Shown: in pieces, positions 2-15,509 of the stretch
Layout of the letters: each line of letters begins with the position of its first letter
Position numbering within the stretch: the first letter of the stretch is position 1
The notes under the pieces: model-generated
What the model saw: the letters and a program-made list of their open reading frames with translations, nothing else
Told to the model about the DNA's origin: nothing
Databases searched by the model: none
Program-made: the position numbers and the translations under genes
From: a virus
Strand: one strand, 5' to 3'
Length of the DNA: 22,086 nt
IMG/VR virus record: IMGVR_UViG_3300025603_000095
Location: 1 to 22,086 of that record

Positions 2-241
2 CAGGAAATTACTGAGGACATCCTTGAGCGCATTGACGCAGGGGTTTTCTCGCTCGTCGGGCAGGAAATTACTGAGGACGTTCTCGAGCGCATTGACGTT
101 GGGGTGTTCGCCATCGATGGCCAAGCAGCTCCGAAAGGCGTTTCAGAATTCGCTGACACTGGGGTTTTCTCGCTCGTCGGGCAGGACATCACCGAGGACA
201 TCCTTGAGCGCATTGACACTGGGTTGTTCAATGTGGTGTTC
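2..241 (+). repeat. Four tandem 60-bp in-frame repeats
   Basis: The units are 2-61, 62-121, 122-181 and 182-241. Units 1, 2 and 4 are very similar, sharing GAGCGCATTGAC and neighbouring bases. Unit 3 keeps only its second half (GGGGTTTTCTCGCTCGTCGG). Each unit is 20 codons, so copy-number change would keep the frame. More units may lie upstream of the window. Confidence 0.85.
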
Positions 242-358
242 TTTGATGTTGCATTGCGCAAGCCTCGCTACGAGTTCCGTGGTGATTCCACTAGCGCAAG
301 GACCAACACAACGCCAAACTCTGCTCTGGTGCTGCAGCTAACCAACAGTGCAACATAG
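2..358 (+). CDS. C-terminal end of a repeat-containing phage structural protein (partial)
   Basis: This frame is open from the left edge to a TAG stop, giving 118 visible residues; the start lies outside the window. Four consecutive 20-residue units fill residues 1-80. Three follow the pattern Q-E/D-I-T-E-D-(I/V)-L-E-R-I-D-x-G-(V/L)-F, and the third unit is diverged (QAAPKGVSEFADTGVF). A non-repetitive tail of about 38 residues follows. Position just before a baseplate-like gene and the lysis cassette suggests a tail-tip, fibre or other virion protein. That role is inferred from gene order and repeats only, and no family is recognised. Competing reading frames here look like repeat shadows: the chosen frame keeps the repeat acidic and helix-like, and it ends just before a good ribosome site for the next gene. 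Confidence 0.6.
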   Translation, partial: QEITEDILERIDAGVFSLVGQEITEDVLERIDVGVFAIDGQAAPKGVSEFADTGVFSLVGQDITEDILERIDTGLFNVVFFDVALRKPRYEFRGDSTSARTNTTPNSALVLQLTNSAT

Positions 359-7185: not shown

Positions 7186-7965
7186 ATGGCCAAAGAAGTC
7201 GCGAAAGCGCAACAGACTGCCCTCTCCACCGAGATCTCTTTCGAGGATTACGCTGGCGCAGGGTTAGAGAATGTCACCAAGGACGACATTCTCATCCCAC
7301 GCCTGACACTGCTTCAGGCTCTTTCACCCCAGCTCAACAAGAAGAAGCCTGAATACATCGAGGGTGCTGCGATCGGCGACATCGCTGACGTAGGCACTGG
7401 CGAGGTGTTTGAGGCGCCAATCTTGTTCTTGCCTGTGCATTTTCAGAAGGTCTGGATCGAGTGGGCACCGCGTGACAGCGGCAAAGGCCTGATCGCCATC
7501 CACGACAATTCGGACTGCATGGACGGGTGCGAGCAGAACGACCGTGGTCAATGGATCAACGATTCGGGCAACTACCTCGCAGAGACCTCACAGTTCTTTG
7601 GGTTCAACCTCGCAGCTGATGGACGCAAGTGCTTTGTGTCGTTCACATCGACGCAGCTTAAGAAGGCACGTCGCTGGAACACGCTGGCCATGAGCGAAAA
7701 GCTCAAGCGTGCTGACGGGAGCGAATATGCACCGCCTTTGTTCTTCCGAACCTACAAGCTCGGTTCGGCTGAGGAAAGCAACTCGCAAGGTGATTGGGCT
7801 GGCTGGACAGTCGAGCGTGGTCCGAAGATGGAAGAGCTCGAGAATTTCAAGGCGATGTTCGCAGAGGCTATTGAGTTCCGCAAGCAGCTTTCGTCGGGTG
7901 TTGTCAAGGCTGACAACTCTGACATCGAGGATGCCGTAGTCTCCAAGGACGAAGGCGCGATGTAA
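7186..7965 (+). CDS. Conserved phage early protein, unknown function (possible ssDNA-binding role)
   Basis: The product has 259 residues with AGGAGG upstream. The pattern DILIPRLTLLQALSPQLNKK, then YIEGAAIGDIADVGTGEVFE, then ILFLPVHFQKVWIEWAPRDS recalls a widely distributed phage protein type usually encoded early, next to replication genes. Its name and function are not certain to me. The central region has C-x-x-x-C (DCMDGCEQ) and the C-terminus is acidic (ADNSDIEDAVVSKDEGAM), a tail feature shared with single-stranded DNA-binding proteins. That similarity is weak and could be coincidental. It is the first rightward gene and is separated from the rest of the cluster by an intrinsic terminator, so it is probably expressed at a higher level than the genes behind it. 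Confidence 0.75.
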   Translation: MAKEVAKAQQTALSTEISFEDYAGAGLENVTKDDILIPRLTLLQALSPQLNKKKPEYIEGAAIGDIADVGTGEVFEAPILFLPVHFQKVWIEWAPRDSGKGLIAIHDNSDCMDGCEQNDRGQWINDSGNYLAETSQFFGFNLAADGRKCFVSFTSTQLKKARRWNTLAMSEKLKRADGSEYAPPLFFRTYKLGSAEESNSQGDWAGWTVERGPKMEELENFKAMFAEAIEFRKQLSSGVVKADNSDIEDAVVSKDEGAM

Positions 7966-8060: not shown

Positions 8061-8615
8061 ATGACCGACTTGTTTGACATTCCCGCCGAGAGCTCTGGCA
8101 ACCTTGTGGAAGTGCTCAAGGACTATTGCTCTGAAGCGATCGAGCTAGACGAAGCTGTCAAAGGCTACGAGCTCGCAATGAAGACTGCCAAGTCGCGGCT
8201 GCATTCGCTGCGCACATTGAAGATACCCGATGCGATGGCTGAGGCTGGCATCGGCGACGTGTTCTCAATGGACACTGGCCATGTGATCAAGCTCAAGCAG
8301 TTCGTCTCTGGCTCGATGCCCAAGGAAGACGAAAAGCGTGACCTCGCGATGAAGGTGCTTGCGCAGCACGGCGGAGCGGCGCTGATCAAGACCGCTGTGG
8401 AAATGGCCTTTGACAAGGGCCAAGCGCACGAGGCCCAGCAGCTCGTAATTCAACTGCGCAACGATGGCTATGACGTGGCCGTGAAAGAAGACGTCAATGC
8501 AATGAGCCTTCAAGCCTTCGCTCGTGAGAAGCTGCGCAACGGCGAGGAGCTTCCACTCGAAACGCTCGGTCTGTTCGCTGGAACCACCGCTGACATCAAG
8601 GAGCCCAAGAAATGA
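8061..8615 (+). CDS. Conserved hypothetical phage protein
   Basis: The product has 184 residues; GACAGGAG precedes the start. Helical heptads at 20-55 (EAIELDEAVKGYELAMKTAK) lead into KIPDAMAEAGIGDVFSMDTG and VIKLKQFVSGSMPKEDEKRD. A 'split helix, then small beta domain with G-x-x-x-F' layout of this kind occurs in phage early proteins near replication genes. No function is recognised. It is the first gene after the terminator and overlaps the next by ATGA, which starts a long run of coupled genes reaching the primase-helicase. Confidence 0.7.
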   Translation: MTDLFDIPAESSGNLVEVLKDYCSEAIELDEAVKGYELAMKTAKSRLHSLRTLKIPDAMAEAGIGDVFSMDTGHVIKLKQFVSGSMPKEDEKRDLAMKVLAQHGGAALIKTAVEMAFDKGQAHEAQQLVIQLRNDGYDVAVKEDVNAMSLQAFAREKLRNGEELPLETLGLFAGTTADIKEPKK

Positions 8616-8881
8616 GACTTCAATCACTGCGCATCGGGCTTAGAAACCCATACAGCGACCCGAGCCCAACGAACCCTTATCAGGCAGTGCTTGAGGTCTC
8701 ATACGATGACACCAAGATGCAAGTTACGCTGGGCGACGAGACGTGCCGACGCATGCTCGAGCTGGCTGGGGAAGAGATCGCCGCTGCGGCACAGATCCAG
8801 ATTCAGGACTTCGTGCGCACAGCACTGGCTGTTTCCAAGCACCAGACAATCGAAGCAATCGCCACCAGCGAGGTGAAATAA
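8612..8881 (+). CDS. Hypothetical phage protein
   Basis: The product has 89 residues; its start overlaps the previous stop as ATGA. An N-terminal stretch rich in Pro and Asn (GLRNPYSDPSPTNPYQAVLE) is followed by a beta-hairpin-like VSYDDTKMQVTLGDETC and a helical C-terminus (RMLELAGEEIAAAAQIQIQD). No family is recognised. The start codon of the next gene uses the last base of its stop (TAATG). Confidence 0.65.
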   Translation: MRLQSLRIGLRNPYSDPSPTNPYQAVLEVSYDDTKMQVTLGDETCRRMLELAGEEIAAAAQIQIQDFVRTALAVSKHQTIEAIATSEVK

Positions 8882-9081
8882 TGAAGCGCATCATTTGCAC
8901 CAACTGCGGCATCCAACTGGAACCAAAGCCCACTGGCCTTGGCGACTGGCCTCTTGAGGCGATGGTTGCGGAGGACGACGATTATCGCCAGAGCCAGCTA
9001 GACGCAGCTCTGGCGGGGTTGCCCTATAAGCACTCGCTGAACATGGCAGCTAACCACCCGACTGTGCAGGTGTTTCCATGA
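8881..9081 (+). CDS. Small hypothetical protein with N-terminal CxxC
   Basis: The product has 66 residues from ATG 8881, with GAGGTGAA upstream. It begins MKRIICTNCGIQLEPKP, which resembles half of a zinc ribbon; a second CxxC is absent, so metal binding would require dimerisation or is not present. The rest is helical and featureless. It overlaps the following gene by ATGA. No function is assigned. Confidence 0.6.
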   Translation: MKRIICTNCGIQLEPKPTGLGDWPLEAMVAEDDDYRQSQLDAALAGLPYKHSLNMAANHPTVQVFP

Positions 9082-10010
9082 TCGTCGCTGGAGCAGGGCT
9101 TGCTGGGTTGATCGCCGCGTCAATGCTGCGTGACGAGGTTGAGGGTGTTTATGAGCTTCAATCCCAACTTCCGCACAACCACTCGGCATTGCTGCGGTTC
9201 CGCAGCTCGGTGGTGGGGGATGCTGTTGGCATTCCCTTCCGCAAGGTCAAGGTCATGAAGTCCGTTGATCCGTGGCGCAACCCAGTTGCTGATGCGCTGA
9301 TGTATTCGATGAAGTGCACAGGCAAGGCCCAGCTTCGTTCGGTGGTGTCAGCGGCTGGTGAGATTGAGGAGCGGTTCATCGCACCTGATGACTTCATCCC
9401 GCGCCTCGCCAAACAGGTCGGACCCAAGATCGCCTTCAATGCTGGGGTGGAAAATGCTCTGGGTCGCCACAAGGTTATCTCGACAGTCCCTATGCCAGCG
9501 ATGATGGACCTGTTGGGCTGGGAAGACAAGCCTGCGTTCGACTTCACTAGTGGCTGGACGATCACTTGCGACCTGCCCAAGTCGATCGATGTGTGCGCAA
9601 CAGTTTACATGCCGCACCCTGCGGTCGAGCCTTACCGCGCATCCATCACTGACCACCGCCTAATCATCGAGGTCAGCGACTGGCAGCTTAATTCGCAACA
9701 ACAAGAGCCATCTAAAGAGCTCGCGATCGGCGCAGCTTGCATGGCTTTGGGGCTGGACCACCTGATGGATTACGTCAAGGAGCACCACGAGATGAAGCGC
9801 ATGAAGTATGCGAAGATTTTGCCGATCCCTGACGCAGTGCGCAAGCGGTTCATAATCTGGGCCAGCGAGAAACACAACGTATATTCGCTAGGACGCTTCG
9901 CCACGTGGCGTCCTGGATTGTTGCTGGACGATGTTGTCAATGACGTTCGCCAGATTCAAAAGATGGCCAGTGGCGAAGTCCACTCCTACAAATCAATGCT
10001 GAAAGGATAA
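9078..10010 (+). CDS. FAD/NAD(P)-dependent oxidoreductase-like protein
   Basis: The product has 310 residues, shorter than typical flavin oxidoreductases (350-500). The extreme N-terminus is a dinucleotide-binding loop (IVAGAGLAGLIAA, G5-x-G7-x-x-G10), with Glu26 where the second strand usually ends. VISTVPMPAMMDLL at 133-146 resembles the mid-protein strand of amine-oxidase/UDP-galactopyranose-mutase-type flavoproteins. LGRFATWRPGLLLDDVVNDV at 271-290 resembles their C-terminal FAD-binding motif (G-R-x-A-x-W/Y, then D-D). Family-level similarity is therefore probable, but the substrate is unknown. It sits immediately upstream of ThyX, itself an FAD/NADPH enzyme, and is probably co-expressed with it. 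A role in flavin or thymidylate chemistry, or in nucleotide-sugar modification, is inference. Confidence 0.75.
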   Translation: MIVAGAGLAGLIAASMLRDEVEGVYELQSQLPHNHSALLRFRSSVVGDAVGIPFRKVKVMKSVDPWRNPVADALMYSMKCTGKAQLRSVVSAAGEIEERFIAPDDFIPRLAKQVGPKIAFNAGVENALGRHKVISTVPMPAMMDLLGWEDKPAFDFTSGWTITCDLPKSIDVCATVYMPHPAVEPYRASITDHRLIIEVSDWQLNSQQQEPSKELAIGAACMALGLDHLMDYVKEHHEMKRMKYAKILPIPDAVRKRFIIWASEKHNVYSLGRFATWRPGLLLDDVVNDVRQIQKMASGEVHSYKSMLKG

Positions 10011-10015
10011 GTCCG

Positions 10016-10768
10016 ATGGACGTGAAACTGATCGATTACACTGGTGCTGGGGCAGCTGATCCCGCACGCCACGCAGCCAACGTGCTGGTGTTCACCAAGC
10101 AGACACGGCTCGAGATGAACGCTGGGTTGATGGATGACATCGCCGCATGGCCAGACGATAAGATTATTGAAGAGCTGCGTTACATGGCCAACACAATCCC
10201 AAGCTCTTGGGAGTTTGTTGAATACAAGTTCCTGATCAACGGCGTCACGCGTGGGTTCACTCACCAGTTCGTGCGCACACGGACAGGCAGCTACGCCCAG
10301 CAGACCATGCGCGTGTTGAACGTCAACGGCTGGACCTATGGCACTGGACCAACTGTGGAAGAGGTGCCTGAGCGGCACGCTGAGTATGCTGCGTGTATGG
10401 GATCGATAGCTGACGTTTACGAGAAGCTGATCGACATGGGCGCCAAGATCGAGGATGCGCGCGGCGTTTTGCCTACGAACATCCACACCAACATCGTGGC
10501 CAAGTTCGATCTGCGGACGCTGGCGGACACAGCGCGCAAGCGTGCGTCGTCGCGGACCCAAGGTGAGTATCGCGATGTCATGGAAGCGATGTTGGCTGAG
10601 GTTTTGCGCGTCCACCCTTGGGCGGCGATGTTTATCAATCGCACCTTCGACAAGGCTGCGGCTGAGTTGGAGGATCGCATCAAGTCTCTTTGCACTCAGC
10701 TGCGCACTGGCGACGTGATCTCAACCAACCTGATCAAGCTGATCGACCAGATGAGGATGACGGCATGA
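10016..10768 (+). CDS. thyX: Flavin-dependent thymidylate synthase (ThyX family)
   Basis: The product has 250 residues; AAAGGATAAG lies just upstream. ThyX enzymes methylate dUMP to dTMP using methylene-tetrahydrofolate, FAD and NADPH. The signature region is HQFVRTRTGSYAQQTMR at residues 83-99, aligning with the canonical Q-x-x-R-H-R-x-x-S-Y-x-x-x-S-x-R-Y. Here the central His is Thr88, the second Ser is Thr97 and the final Tyr is Val100, while Arg87, Arg89, Ser92 and Arg99 are kept. The C-terminal block LPTNIHTNIVAKFDLRTLAD, then RKRASSRTQGEYRDV, matches the family's dUMP/FAD-binding end. The fold assignment is secure; whether catalysis is standard with these substitutions is open. The gene overlaps the next by ATGA. 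Confidence 0.88.
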   Translation: MDVKLIDYTGAGAADPARHAANVLVFTKQTRLEMNAGLMDDIAAWPDDKIIEELRYMANTIPSSWEFVEYKFLINGVTRGFTHQFVRTRTGSYAQQTMRVLNVNGWTYGTGPTVEEVPERHAEYAACMGSIADVYEKLIDMGAKIEDARGVLPTNIHTNIVAKFDLRTLADTARKRASSRTQGEYRDVMEAMLAEVLRVHPWAAMFINRTFDKAAAELEDRIKSLCTQLRTGDVISTNLIKLIDQMRMTA

Positions 10769-10971: not shown

Positions 10972-11117
10972 AGGAGCGATGGAGATTTTATTACGTGCAC
11001 CGTGACGGGTGGCTGACCGACGACATTAACAAGGCCCTCGGCAAGTGCGTAGGTGTCGTTGAAGCTCGCAGCGAAGAAGAGGCGCTGCGTCTGGCCAAGG
11101 AAAGGGAGCTGCTGTGA
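10968..11117 (+). CDS. Very small hypothetical protein
   Basis: The product has 49 residues. It opens MKERWRFYYVHRDGWLTDDI and ends in a charged helix (EARSEEEALRLAKERELL). It overlaps the previous stop as ATGA and the next start as GTGA. The dense overlap on both sides and protein-like composition support it. Function is unknown. Confidence 0.55.
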   Translation: MKERWRFYYVHRDGWLTDDINKALGKCVGVVEARSEEEALRLAKERELL

Positions 11118-11560
11118 GAGGCAAGATTATTATCGTCGACCTTGACGGAACCCTTTACAATTCTGTTGGGCGGTCGCACTTGGCCAAGGCTGGTCTTTGG
11201 GACGATTTCCACTCGCAGTCTGTTTTTGACCAACCCAACTATGACGTGCTTGAGCTTGTGCAGCTTTTGTCAAAAGACCACACAATGCTGGGAATAACAG
11301 GACGCAGCGAGAAGTTCCGTAACATCACCAACGCATGGATGCATCGCTGGTCTGTTCCGCTGGATGACCTTTTGATGCGACCCGACGGAAACTATTACTC
11401 CGACGCTGAGGTTAAGCTGAGCCTGTTGCACCGCTGGCTGGGCAAAAACGACCGCACAATGCGCGAGGTCTGGTTCGCGTTGGAAGACCGCGACAAGATG
11501 GTGGACGCATGGCGCAATGCGAACATCCCATGTTACCAAGTCAGAGCAGGAGAATACTGA
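11114..11560 (+). CDS. HAD-superfamily phosphatase (polynucleotide 3'-phosphatase-like)
   Basis: The product has 148 residues from GTG 11114, which overlaps the previous stop; GGGAG is 5 bases upstream and no better ATG exists. Motif I is VDLDGT with nucleophile Asp9 and acid/base Asp11. Motif II is T62-G-R. Lys101 (AEVKLSLL) fits motif III and E124-D-R-D127 fits motif IV, so the full HAD catalytic set is present. The layout, with W-M-x(n)-V-P-x-D then R-P-D-G-N-Y-Y, resembles the phosphatase domain of phage T4 PseT-type end-healing enzymes. No kinase domain is present. Its substrate could be DNA or RNA 3' ends or nucleotides. A place among replication and repair genes favours nucleic-acid or nucleotide substrates. 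Confidence 0.82.
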   Translation: MRGKIIIVDLDGTLYNSVGRSHLAKAGLWDDFHSQSVFDQPNYDVLELVQLLSKDHTMLGITGRSEKFRNITNAWMHRWSVPLDDLLMRPDGNYYSDAEVKLSLLHRWLGKNDRTMREVWFALEDRDKMVDAWRNANIPCYQVRAGEY

Positions 11561-11760
11561 TGGACGGGCAATTCTACGACTACGCAACTGATTCGATCAA
11601 CAACTCACCTTACCACCCCGACTATGGCTTCATCGACAAGTTCCGCCTCAACTGCGTTGAGCTGGCATCGATGGTCGGGGTGCGTGCAGCAGCCGAGGCT
11701 GCTGAGGTGTCAAAGGCATCAATTTACCGCTGGAGGAAAGATTATGATGACCGTGCCTGA
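11560..11760 (+). CDS. Small helix-turn-helix protein
   Basis: The product has 66 residues from ATG 11560, which shares one base with the previous stop and has AGGAGA 9 bases upstream. The C-terminal half (VELASMVGVRAAAEAAEVSK, then ASIYRWRKDYDDRA) is a compact helix-turn-helix of the homeodomain-like/transposase-type, the recognition helix being SKASIYRWRKDY. It is too small to carry any other domain and may be a regulator or a DNA-binding accessory. The 3' end overlaps the following start by 17 bp. Confidence 0.68.
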   Translation: MDGQFYDYATDSINNSPYHPDYGFIDKFRLNCVELASMVGVRAAAEAAEVSKASIYRWRKDYDDRA

Positions 11761-12067
11761 TATGCTGCGGCAATCCGCAGAGACCTACGAGCAGCGCAAC
11801 AAGCTCTATGGCGACAACTACAAGCGTTTCGGCCACATCGTCGCATTGCTGTTCCCCAACGGCATCAAGCTGGAAAGCGAAGACGACCACAATCGTTTTG
11901 GGGTGTTCGTGCAGATCGTTTCCAAGCTGACCCGCTACGCTGAGAATTTCGGCACTGGTGGCCATGACGACTCGCTGCTGGACATGACAGTTTACGCGAC
12001 GATGCTGCGCGAGCTGGACATGGAAGCCAAGGCGCGCACCATGGATTCAATTAGGAAGAGTTTGTGA
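11744..12067 (+). CDS. Small phage protein, DUF6378-like
   Basis: The product has 107 residues from ATG 11744 (a second ATG follows at 11747), with GGAGG 7 bases upstream. AETYEQRNKLYGDNYKRFGH, then ALLFPNGIKL, R-F-G-V-F-V-Q-I-V-S-K-L-T-R-Y and DDSLLDMTVYATMLRELD form an all-helical pattern common to small phage proteins that I associate with DUF6378. The D-S-L-L-D-M-T-V-Y-A-T-M-L helix also resembles all-alpha NTP pyrophosphatases (MazG-like), but the complete metal-binding motif is not obvious. Nucleotide-pool function is therefore a suggestion only. It overlaps the exonuclease start as TGATG. Confidence 0.65.
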   Translation: MMTVPDMLRQSAETYEQRNKLYGDNYKRFGHIVALLFPNGIKLESEDDHNRFGVFVQIVSKLTRYAENFGTGGHDDSLLDMTVYATMLRELDMEAKARTMDSIRKSL

Positions 12068-12633
12068 TGCAGGCGATATTGTTCGACACTGAGACCACCG
12101 ACCTGATCCACAACCACGCAATCCCTCTGGACCAGCAGCCTCGCATCATCGAGATCTACGCTCTCAAGATTCAGCTGCCAGCGGATGCGTTCGGCTCAGC
12201 CGAGGAATGGCAGTTTGTCGATGAGTTTGAATCCTTCGTGAATCCTGGGATCAAGATCACCGACGAGATCACGCGCATCACCAACATCACCAACGCAGAC
12301 GTCCGCGATGCACCGCGCATCGCCGAGCTATGGCCAAGGCTGCGTGACTTCTTCGCAACGGCGGACATGGTGGTGGCCCACAATGTTTCATACGACATGG
12401 GCGTCATAGACTTCGAGCAGTTGCGTGTTAATGACAAGCAGAAGTTCCCTTGGCCACCCAAGCGGCTGTGCACTGTTGAGGCAACTGAGCACCTAAAGGG
12501 CCACCGCCTGAGCCTGACTGCGTTGCATGAGCAACTGTTCGGCGTCAAGTTCGAAGGCGCACACCGCGCACGCACTGACGTGAAGGCCATGACCATGTGC
12601 TTTAAGAAGCTCTGGGAGGATTGTGAGATATGA
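12067..12633 (+). CDS. DnaQ-like 3'-5' exonuclease (DEDD family)
   Basis: The product has 188 residues from ATG 12067; a GTG one codon upstream is possible. The three exonuclease motifs are complete: ExoI FDTETT (Asp7, Glu9), ExoII HNVSYDMG (Asp110) and ExoIII HRARTD (His166, Asp171), with the His spacing of the DEDDh class. This is the proofreading epsilon-type fold. It overlaps the start of the C-family polymerase gene, so it is very probably the proofreading subunit for that polymerase, encoded as a separate protein. An alternative is a general exonuclease for host DNA or RNA. Confidence 0.88.
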   Translation: MQAILFDTETTDLIHNHAIPLDQQPRIIEIYALKIQLPADAFGSAEEWQFVDEFESFVNPGIKITDEITRITNITNADVRDAPRIAELWPRLRDFFATADMVVAHNVSYDMGVIDFEQLRVNDKQKFPWPPKRLCTVEATEHLKGHRLSLTALHEQLFGVKFEGAHRARTDVKAMTMCFKKLWEDCEI

Positions 12634-15509
12634 GGATCCGCACAGGCTATTCATTCCGCCAAGCAGTGGGGCACCTCGACGAAGCTCTCGCAGGCATCCA
12701 GCGCATGGGGCTCCCATTCGCGCCAATCACCGACCGCGCCTCAACCTTTGGGTTCGTGCGTTGGTCCAAGCTGTGCAAGAAGAACGACCTCAAGCCTGTG
12801 TTCGGGGTTGAGCTGGCAGTGACCGACGACCCACAGAGCAAAAAGCCTGCGTTCGACCACTGGACATTCGTGGCCAAGGATTCACTGGTGCAAGTGCATG
12901 AGGCTCTTGAGCTGGCCACCTCTCAGTTCCGCTATGAGGCTCTGCTCAACTATGATCAGGCCCAAGCGGTTGACGCAATCAAGATCGTCGGCCATCGCTC
13001 AAACCTAGAGGGCATCGACCCCAACACACCTGACCTTTACGTCGCGCTGAGCCCAAGCCTGAGCAATGGTCAGTTTGTGCGTGCGCAGCGATTGGGGTTC
13101 AAGTTCATCGCATCGGGCGACAATCGCTACCCCAGCGAGAAAGATCTGGCGTTCTACGAGGTGGTGTGCGGACGCATGGCATCCACCCAGAGCTATCCGC
13201 AATGGATCGTCTCTCGTGAGGAGTGGGCAGCAGCCCTGCCCAGAGGCTGCTCAGCGTCCGTGGCCGACGAAGCGTGGGCAACGCTACTCTCGGTCGGAGA
13301 AAGCCTTTCAGCGGCGCTAAAATCTGGGTCTCTGTTGGTGCCCGAAAAGAAGATGTCGCTGCGCAAGATGTGCGAGGCGGGTGCGAAAGAATTAGGCATC
13401 GACCTTTCGGACGAAATATACGCTGCTCGGCTGAAGAAAGAGCTGGACCTGATCGACCTCAAGCAGTTCGAGGACTACTTCTACATCATCGCTGACATGG
13501 TGGCTTGGGCACGGGAGCGGATGATCGTCGGCCCAGCGCGGGGTTCGTCGTGCGGGAGCTTGGCTTGCTACCTGCTCAAGATCACGACGATTGACCCAAT
13601 CCCTTACGGGTTGATCTTTGAACGCTTCATCGACCTCAATCGTTCGGACCTGCCAGACATCGACATCGACTTCTCCGACCAGCAGCGGCACCTCGTGTTC
13701 GAATACATGGAGAACAAGTACGGTCGCGACCGCATTGCGCGGCTGGGCACGGTGGCGATGTATAAGGCACGGTCGTCGATGCAGGAAGCTGGCGCAGCGT
13801 TGCGCATTCCGCGTTGGCAGACCGACAAGGCTCTGGACGCATTGATTGAGCGCAGCTCGGGCGACTCACGCGCATTGGACACGCTGCGTGACACGCTGGA
13901 ACAAACACCCAACGGCCAAGAGCTGGTGAGCAAATACCCAGAGGTCATGGTGGCGACAAAGATGGAAGGCCACCCACGTCACCACTCCCAGCACGCGGCG
14001 GGCATCGTGTTGACCGAGCTGCCAGTGCATGAATACGTCGCCGTGGACAAGAGGACGGGTGCGACCCATTGTGACAAAAAGGACGCTGAAGAGCTTGAGC
14101 TGCTGAAGATCGACGCGCTGGGCCTTACGCAGCTGTCCGTGTTCGAGGATGCATTGGAGCTGGCGGGGTTGCCGCTGCACTTTTTGGAGAGCGTGCCACT
14201 GGACGACGACGCTGCGTTCGACGTGCTCAACAAGGGCCATTTTAGCGGCGTGTTCCAGTTCAACGGGTTGGCATTGCAGTCGTTGTGCAAGCAGACCAAG
14301 GTGGTCGAGCTGGACGACATCATCGCCATCACCGCTCTGGCGCGTCCTGGACCGCTGACGTCTGGTGGCGCATCCGAGTGGGTTTACCGCAAGAACGGCT
14401 GGGACCCAAGGATCAATCAGAAGATCGGCACCACCTACCCTCACCCGTTGTTTGAGCCATACCTGAATGACACGCGTGGCATCGTGTTGTATCAGGAGCA
14501 GGTCATGGAGATCGGTCGGCAGATTGGCGACCTGAGCTGGGAAGACGTGACCGCATTGCGCAAGGCGATGTCGAAGTCTCTGGGCAAGGAATACTTCGAC
14601 CAGTTCGGCGACCGCTGGAAGGACGCAGCCGAGAAGAAGGGCATCCCGCGCGACGTGCTTGACAAGGTCTGGGACGACCTTTGCGCCTACGGTGCGTGGG
14701 CATTCAACAAGTCACACTCGGTGGCGTATGGGATGATCAGCTATTGGTGCTGTTGGATGAAGGCACACTACCCAACGCAGTTCGCCGCTGCGACCCTCAA
14801 CCACGAAACTGACCCAATGAAGCAGATCGGCACGCTGCGTGAGCTGCACAACGAGGGAATCGGCTACGTCGCGGTGGACGCAGAGCTGTCGACCGACAAG
14901 TGGCAGGTTGGGTTTGTTGACGGCAAGCAGGTGCTGGTGGGCCCAGTGCAGAACGTCAGGGGCATTGGCCCAAAGCTCGTGCAACAGATTGTGAGCTCAA
15001 GGCACCGCAACGAGCCTCTGCCAGCGCGTGCTGCCAAGCTGCTGGCCGACCCCAAGACCCAGATCGACACGCTGTGGCCAGTGCGCGACCGCATCCAAGA
15101 GCTGATCCCTGACCCAACAGAGCGCAACATCCTTACGCCTGTTTCGGTCATCGAAGACATAACAGAAGCTCACGAAAAGGAGACGACATTCTTGATCATC
15201 GCAGTGGCCAAGTCGATCAACCCGCGCGATGAAAACGAGACGATCATGATCGCGCGGCGTGGCTATGAGATCAAAGATGGCAAGACGCAATCGCTCAACC
15301 TGCAGATGGAGGATGACACAGGCATCATCTATTGCAAGATCGGGCGGTGGAAATACGCCCAGCTAGGCAAGCAGATCGTCGATCGCGGTCGTCCTGGCAA
15401 GTCAATTTATGCCATCAAAGGTTCGGCCCTGCCCAAGCGCAGGTTCTTGATGGTCGAAAACGTTCGCTACATTGGCGACATGGATCCAACACACGAGGAA
15501 AACAAATGA
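12630..15509 (+). CDS. C-family DNA polymerase (DNA polymerase III alpha-like)
   Basis: The product has 959 residues; ATG 12630 overlaps the exonuclease stop. The polymerase core carries GPARGSSCGSL at about 301, the catalytic P-D-I-D-I-D-F with Asp343 and Asp345, and the third carboxylate in LLKIDALGL at Asp495. HHSQHAAGIVL, ALARPGPL, YQEQVM (about 621) and AFNKSHSVAYG (about 691) are further C-family blocks. The N-terminal PHP-like region (about 1-215) has lost the opening HxH metal ligands: it reads RIRTGYSF, and ITDRASTFGFV further on. An OB-like domain spans roughly 849-945. The protein ends there, so the tau-binding tail of cellular DnaE (about 1,160 residues) is absent. It is the replicative polymerase of the phage, partnered with the exonuclease before and the primase-helicase after. 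Confidence 0.93.
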   Translation: MRIRTGYSFRQAVGHLDEALAGIQRMGLPFAPITDRASTFGFVRWSKLCKKNDLKPVFGVELAVTDDPQSKKPAFDHWTFVAKDSLVQVHEALELATSQFRYEALLNYDQAQAVDAIKIVGHRSNLEGIDPNTPDLYVALSPSLSNGQFVRAQRLGFKFIASGDNRYPSEKDLAFYEVVCGRMASTQSYPQWIVSREEWAAALPRGCSASVADEAWATLLSVGESLSAALKSGSLLVPEKKMSLRKMCEAGAKELGIDLSDEIYAARLKKELDLIDLKQFEDYFYIIADMVAWARERMIVGPARGSSCGSLACYLLKITTIDPIPYGLIFERFIDLNRSDLPDIDIDFSDQQRHLVFEYMENKYGRDRIARLGTVAMYKARSSMQEAGAALRIPRWQTDKALDALIERSSGDSRALDTLRDTLEQTPNGQELVSKYPEVMVATKMEGHPRHHSQHAAGIVLTELPVHEYVAVDKRTGATHCDKKDAEELELLKIDALGLTQLSVFEDALELAGLPLHFLESVPLDDDAAFDVLNKGHFSGVFQFNGLALQSLCKQTKVVELDDIIAITALARPGPLTSGGASEWVYRKNGWDPRINQKIGTTYPHPLFEPYLNDTRGIVLYQEQVMEIGRQIGDLSWEDVTALRKAMSKSLGKEYFDQFGDRWKDAAEKKGIPRDVLDKVWDDLCAYGAWAFNKSHSVAYGMISYWCCWMKAHYPTQFAAATLNHETDPMKQIGTLRELHNEGIGYVAVDAELSTDKWQVGFVDGKQVLVGPVQNVRGIGPKLVQQIVSSRHRNEPLPARAAKLLADPKTQIDTLWPVRDRIQELIPDPTERNILTPVSVIEDITEAHEKETTFLIIAVAKSINPRDENETIMIARRGYEIKDGKTQSLNLQMEDDTGIIYCKIGRWKYAQLGKQIVDRGRPGKSIYAIKGSALPKRRFLMVENVRYIGDMDPTHEENK

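Follow-up and report, generated by a model that had tools for sequence, protein, structure and literature searches.

A phage flavoprotein with a predicted UDP-galactopyranose mutase-type fold is encoded beside a ThyX altered at conserved active-site positions

Organization of the locus

The window (the whole stretch of DNA that was analysed) is a virus record of 22,086 bp and represents an incomplete fragment. The genes of the cassette described here are all encoded on its plus strand. The gene under study is a 310-aa ORF (9078–10010) with ATG 9078 as the sole start codon in the open frame, which on the basis of a profile match and a predicted fold was assigned to a family of FAD proteins with the fold of UDP-galactopyranose mutase (UGM) (PHROG 4828, labelled FAM1 below). 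It is preceded by genes for a Pam3 gp34-like protein (7186–7965; Pfam, 7.5e-56) and a Pam3 gp33-like protein (8061–8615; Pfam DUF7307, 1.4e-21), both conserved upstream (57 and 58 of 74 nonredundant loci, respectively), and by a 67-aa ORF (8881–9081), the stop codon of which overlaps the FAM1 start (ATGA). A divergent thyX (10016–10768; Pfam Thy1, 2.6e-31) begins 5 bp after the FAM1 stop codon, with an AAAGGA-like ribosome site preceding its start. Further downstream are genes for a HAD phosphatase of the PNKP-phosphatase type (11114–11560; Pfam HAD_PNKP, 3.4e-22), a MazG-like/DUF6378-like protein (11744–12067, a likely start inside ORF 11624–12067; phrog_4889, 3e-16, with Pfam DUF6378 at E 0.016 being below the cut-off), a DNA polymerase exonuclease subunit (12064–12633; phrog_192, 2.4e-40) and a DNA polymerase III alpha-like ORF (12630–15509), annotated homologues of which lie 3′ of the same cassette elsewhere. 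The left-end protein of the window (2–261), taken from the ORF listing, contains a repeated unit of ~21 residues (ADTGVFSLVGQDITEDILERI-like).

The flavoprotein family and its predicted fold

The initial annotation had described an N-terminal Rossmann loop and a C-terminal FAD motif in the 310-aa protein, and both were found to be conserved in an alignment of 64 rows. The GxGxxG FAD-binding loop (GAGLAG, residues 5–10, 9090–9107) has invariant G5, G7 and G10, a second loop (LPHNHSALLRFR, residues 31–42, 9168–9203) has invariant H35, R40 and F41, and the C-terminal motif (YSLGRFATWRPGLLLDD, residues 269–285, 9882–9932) has invariant G272, R273, A275, W277, D284 and D285. Over the alignment as a whole the invariant residues are G5, G7, G10, E26, H35, R40, G272, R273, W277, D284, D285 and D289. 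The combination of GxGxxG with the acidic E26 after strand 2, which marks GR2 flavoproteins, is thus present throughout the 64 rows.

The window protein matched only PHROG 4828 (“unknown function”), as a full-length profile (4e-54, residues 1–299); Pfam gave nothing below E 0.1, and NCBIfam gave no match. Relatives were found in 359 of 50,697 phage records, with hosts being Pseudomonas (291), Escherichia (27), Serratia (9), Rhizobium (8), Xanthomonas (6) and others; among the records listed they are mostly annotated as “hypothetical,” with “oxidoreductase” appearing in Pantoea phage Kyle. Viral contigs gave 498 candidate stretches encoding FAM1, and the 80 best of these were retained. The profile match, the phage records and the viral-contig stretches together argue that the gene is not a chance ORF. 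A profile scan of 84,980 bacterial and archaeal species genomes returned three relatives, two of which adjoin a thyX, the third being cut at a contig end. The family is essentially phage-only.

An AlphaFold2 model built from the 64-row alignment (mean pLDDT 90.6, pTM 0.86) placed UGM first in Foldseek (5vwt, E 1.7e-10). The best PDB match by VIA-align was also a UGM (4dsg; Z 21.7, rmsd 3.2, 296 residues), followed by Aspergillus fumigatus UGM at ~20.8, including its NADPH and NADH complexes (5vwt, 5vwu), with protoporphyrinogen oxidase (18.3) and monoamine oxidases (~16) further down. Structure prediction and fold search therefore agree with the UGM-like FAD fold proposed initially. The model indicates a complete UGM-type (GR2) FAD fold over the whole chain, and from fold and motifs the protein is predicted to bind FAD. 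Sequence-profile searches of the PDB gave weak matches (best E about 0.01–0.02, to amine-oxidase N-termini; UGM 4dsg at E 0.04 with 64 rows), so that the fold assignment depends on the AlphaFold2 model.

FAM1 resembles the UGMs of Trypanosoma cruzi (4dsg) and A. fumigatus in its whole-length GR2-type FAD fold, its GxGxxG start and its GR...D end. However, it has 310 aa compared with 466–510 aa in the best matches, is essentially confined to phages and has no sugar pathway context, with no sugar-nucleotide gene being recognised among its conserved neighbours (74 loci). The GLF profile (PF03275) did not match the window protein at E ≤ 1, was absent from the 14 families matched in 64 FAM1 members (E 0.1) and was found in none of 14 whole phage records, although the control gave matches in 4 of 14 genomes.

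Linkage of the flavoprotein gene and thyX

Ninety FAM1 loci were compared, the window and locus L006 among them being the same place. ThyX lies 3′ of FAM1 on the same strand in 88 loci, with gaps between the open frames of −145 to 2,404 bp. The two others (L012 and L084) stop 22 and 64 bp past the FAM1 gene. A reverse search with a 14-row profile of the variant ThyX gave 80 loci, on many contigs common to the forward set, and FAM1 was found upstream in 77; the three remaining loci hold only 2, 0, and 101 bp of sequence upstream of ThyX. All five misses are hence contig-end cuts, and among the 80 loci found through the variant ThyX every intact one has the flavoprotein. The pairing is near-obligate. 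The co-orientation with thyX noted at first reading is accordingly general, and the neighbourhood survey then proposed as a check found the linkage to be conserved and fixed.

Of the 74 nonredundant FAM1 loci, 72 have ThyX, 71 the HAD/MazG cluster, 62 the exonuclease, 58 the Pam3 gp33-like protein, 57 the gp34-like protein and 55 Pol III alpha. HAD/MazG linkage is as tight as that of ThyX, so general operon conservation accounts for part of the linkage. A conserved cassette protein present in 22 of the 74 loci (L001:10072–10620) has a weak glyoxalase/VOC likeness (Pfam E 0.0045). In Pseudomonas phage WP1 (PP596839.1, 1286–4526), FAM1 and ThyX are each broken into several annotated ORFs, a pattern as would result from frameshift errors in the record.

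The altered partner ThyX

The initial annotation correctly reported a ThyX neighbour but did not notice its abnormality, namely the loss of conserved active-site residues. The ThyX of the window matches the Thy1 profile (2.6e-31) and lacks the canonical RHR, His53 and Tyr91. In the alignment, R-T-R...M-R-V (10274–10315, plus strand) replaces R-H-R...R-Y at the positions of His79 and Tyr91. Residue numbers are those of Thermotoga maritima ThyX, taken from printed TM0449 alignments via phage P74-26 with an inferred 12-residue tag offset. Among 88 FAM1-linked ThyX rows, His53 occurs in none, His79 of RHR in three (Thr in 76, Ser in 7, Asn in 2) and Tyr or Phe at position 91 in none. The variant-ThyX search set (76 rows, overlapping the FAM1-linked set) has no His53, one His79 and no aromatic residue at 91, such that RHR is present in four rows (3/88 and 1/76). 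Gln75 (88/88), Arg78 (88/88), Arg80 (88/88), Arg90 (86/88) and Arg147 (87/88) are kept; these retained residues are those assigned to FAD and dUMP binding. Columns labelled 163, 165, 174, 178, 180, 181 and 182, misplaced by one position or more, were left out of the comparison. The partner is thus like canonical ThyX/FDTS (TM0449) in being a Thy1 protein by Pfam which keeps Gln75 and the FAD/dUMP-binding arginines, but differs from it in the replacement of His53, His79 and Tyr91.

Control phage ThyX from 80 loci had His53 in 78, His79 in 80, an aromatic residue at 91 in 80 and a full RHR in 79; as this set was drawn with a profile of four RHR ThyX proteins, its RHR content is partly due to selection. 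The absence of the flavoprotein from the controls is not a product of that selection. Neither FAM1 nor the related actinophage family FAM2 (below) occurred in the 80 control loci, which are pieces of genomes, nor in the whole records of four RHR-ThyX phages (P74-26, phi18-2, SRB7757 and SRV). One Thy1 protein was found in each of 14 FAM phage records, a set apart from the window record, and ThyA was found in none of them (the control matched in 9 of 14 genomes).

The RHR motif has been described as FAD-binding (PMC6514825). Tyr91 has been proposed as the general acid of ThyX methylene transfer, and in the Y91A variant consumption of the flavin carbinolamine was reported to be more than 100-fold slower (PMC8316439).

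The actinophage family and the ThyX tree

FAM2 is an actinophage “oxidoreductase” family (Rie18 gp52) of 120 records from phages of Gordonia (46), Microbacterium (36), Mycobacterium (26), Streptomyces (9), Arthrobacter (2) and Nocardia (1). Its model (pLDDT 92.7) is of the same fold class (4dsg, Z 15.3), and in the viral library its best matches beyond FAM2 itself are to FAM1 proteins. The two families aligned by hhalign at 98.0% (E 2.1e-13, 120 columns) with a 60-row profile; a six-row FAM2 profile aligned over 33 columns only. FAM2 shares with FAM1 the fold class and a ThyX partner of the same clade, but has ~265 aa, very low sequence identity and a usual distance of 5–9 kb from thyX. ThyX was present in 51 of 80 FAM2 viral-contig loci (flanks of up to 10 kb), always downstream and on the same strand (−87 to 9,468 bp). 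Four of the 29 loci without it (L275, L285, L309, and L317) lack it despite ~10 kb of downstream sequence. Position 79 of the 51 FAM2-linked ThyX is Gln, Ser, Thr or Asn and never His, position 53 is Leu in all, and Phe is found at 91 in 25.

In a 72-row ThyX tree, in which long branches were flagged and the motif columns were retained, FAM1- and FAM2-linked ThyX fall together on one side of a branch with support of 97/88; FAM1-linked ThyX have their own branch (100/99), and FAM2-linked ThyX need two changes. The flavoprotein–ThyX pairing probably arose once and was kept over great divergence. As losses and partner trace to one clade, the ThyX residue losses are not independent and count essentially as one event.

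Companion genes

Short-chain dehydrogenase (SDR) genes were found in 48 of 139 FAM1, 25 of 86 FAM2 and none of 84 control loci, and carbamoyltransferase genes in 8, 0, and 0 of the same sets. These counts are of distinct records, following removal of 29 FAM1 duplicates (28 contigs fetched twice, and L006, which is the window) and three for FAM2; before deduplication the FAM1 figures were 11/168 for the carbamoyltransferase and 59/168 for SDR. The carbamoyltransferase of L005 matches Pfam Carbam_trans_N (1.1e-55) and Carbam_trans_C (4.3e-44). In L005, L045 and L049 the order is ThyX, HAD gene, carbamoyltransferase, and in L078 the gene sits between the flavoprotein and ThyX. The position of these genes in the cassette is varied (L005:4569–6329; L078:6945–8606; also L020, L034, L045, L049, L079, and L231).

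Carbamoyltransferases of this type use an acceptor hydroxyl, and thymine has none. Their possible role in the cassette is a further nucleotide modification. They are the clearest hint of a hydroxylated product, though one found in 8 of 139 loci only. In phage SirHarley the genes that follow FAM2 encode an NT5C pyrimidine deoxynucleotidase, a methyltransferase and an SDR, and L012 has a YfbR-like deoxynucleotidase upstream.

Evidence on DNA modification

Phage modules for modification at the nucleotide level include those of 2-aminoadenine phages with MazZ/DatZ and those of hydroxymethylase phages. The FAM1 cassette is similar in that a putative modifying synthase has pyrophosphatase/phosphatase genes as neighbours, together with a polymerase encoded by the phage itself. 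However, hydroxymethylases of the known thymidine-modifying phages are ThyA-type, and base modification by the FAM1 cassette is a prediction. A ThyA-type hydroxymethylase route found no candidate, there being no ThyA synthase in the 14 FAM phage records. The HMUDK_hel (5-hmdU DNA kinase) domain matched in none of the 14, but neither did the control in any genome. Jumbo phages with TS or ThyX have been described as making thymidylate or a modified pyrimidine, and MazG-like enzymes as possibly removing unmodified nucleotides (PMC7824862); the available text of that source does not describe the flavoprotein–ThyX pair. No published account of the pair was found in titles and abstract openings, in a search with little coverage of the subscription literature.

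Restriction data on phages with the pair include both resistance and sensitivity. DNA of the Pbunavirus phages AA20 and AC20 was reported as resistant to 10/16 and 7/16 enzymes, respectively, with both being cut by HindIII and MspI (PMC11945000). Part of this resistance may be due to missing sites, as the first 50 kb of Ab27 contain no SmaI or XhoI site. DNA of JG024, also a Pbunavirus, was cut by SacII (PMC3008698). Phage rebooting makes use of yeast-cloned genomes of JG024 and F8 (PMC10913387), so that any modification would not be needed at entry. Wifcevirus has been described as sensitive to EcoP1_I, and the first 50 kb of the Wifcevirus phage Bas98 contain 13 EcoRI, 3 EcoRV and 5 EcoKI sites.

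Palindrome avoidance by T number was tried as a sign of modification and rejected, the control phages N4, phiEco32, KPP10 and LUZ24 being broadly similar. In Wifcevirus and Pbunavirus, GC-only sites are avoided more than T-rich ones. L189, L190 and the window strongly avoid, for example, CCCGGG and CCGCGG and have TGATCA in excess, with CTCGAG also avoided in L189 and L190.

Proposed role of the pair

At a probability of roughly 0.42, the favoured reading is that FAM1 is a minimal UGM-fold FAD enzyme and the dedicated partner of a rewired ThyX, a C5-substituted product of which it handles. The pathway of two flavoproteins would act on dUMP and probably give a 5-substituted deoxyuridylate instead of plain dTMP. 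The chemistry that we infer is as follows. The partner ThyX would still bind dUMP and FAD and add a one-carbon unit at C5, but the usual reduction to dTMP with NADPH would no longer be completed. Instead, the methylene intermediate would leave, or be trapped, as a 5-substituted product (e.g., 5-hydroxymethyl-dUMP). On this nucleotide the UGM-fold flavoenzyme may then act, either by flavin redox or through chemistry at flavin N5. The neighbouring HAD phosphatase and MazG-like enzyme could shape the nucleotide pool, the phage's own Pol III would incorporate the product, and in some phages a carbamoyltransferase or short-chain dehydrogenase may act further.

This redirected-ThyX reading is favoured by the predicted fold, the linkage, the losses of His53, His79 and Tyr91, and the shared ThyX branch (97/88), as well as by the carbamoyltransferase and SDR genes of FAM loci (0/84 in controls) and NT5C in SirHarley. 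Against it stand the origin of the losses in a single clade event, the equally tight linkage of HAD/MazG, the Phe91 kept in 25 of 51 FAM2-linked ThyX, the four RHR rows, the cutting of Pbunavirus DNA by SacII, HindIII and MspI, the EcoP1_I sensitivity of Wifcevirus, and a palindrome avoidance by T content which is the same as in control phages. A tentative extension, less probable than the reading itself, is that the phage clade as a whole, with its therapeutic PB1-like Pseudomonas phages, its Wifcevirus members and numerous actinophages, could produce a pre-modified pyrimidine deoxynucleotide by means of a ThyX-derived hydroxymethylase or C5-substituting enzyme together with the UGM-fold flavoenzyme. 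Of the roles offered in the initial annotation, action on a nucleotide or support of DNA modification is favoured by indirect evidence.

The supply of reduced flavin, also put forward there, is possible and would belong to a two-component thymidylate synthase. In it the flavoprotein, once reduced by NAD(P)H, would pass electrons or reduced flavin on to a ThyX that now makes poor use of NADPH, and ordinary dTMP would be made faster than by ThyX alone. This model ranks second and is rather unlikely. The same linkage and residue losses fit it, as do the NADPH and NADH complexes of UGM (5vwt, 5vwu) among the closest fold relatives and the single ThyX without ThyA in 14 of 14 FAM phages, but Tyr91, with its proposed part in methylene transfer and not in flavin reduction, is also lost, and the carbamoyltransferase, SDR and HAD/MazG companions and the restriction resistance of Wifcevirus are left unexplained. 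Less likely again is that the flavoprotein acts on its own and is simply passed on with ThyX as part of a conserved replication operon: the similar linkage of HAD/MazG, exonuclease and Pol III alpha (71, 62, and 55 of 74 loci) is as expected under co-inheritance, yet the actinophage genes are usually kilobases apart and still co-occur (51/80 loci; Sadboi and Aikoy), and the variant ThyX was never found in an intact locus without the flavoprotein (77/80, with three cut). A true UGM or nucleotide-sugar mutase serving DNA or surface glycan modification is very improbable, as the action on nucleotide sugars once proposed has no support beyond UGM being the best fold match. At 310 aa the protein falls short of the UGM chains that it matched (349–513 aa), and both GLF matches and recognised sugar-nucleotide neighbours are absent from the sets searched.

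ThyX is described as a self-sufficient flavoenzyme. Here, in a phage clade that is both large and widespread, it occurs with a second flavoprotein that is unnamed in databases, and it has been stripped of three conserved active-site residues. The pair bears on whether the ThyX reaction might be divided or diverted, and on whether base modification has been overlooked in common therapy phages. The findings suggest that many phages, therapy phages among them, run an undescribed two-enzyme step which makes or modifies thymidylate. If the redirected-ThyX reading is true, it would represent a ThyX-based route to DNA-base modification and would account for the restriction resistance of Wifcevirus, which has no known protection system.
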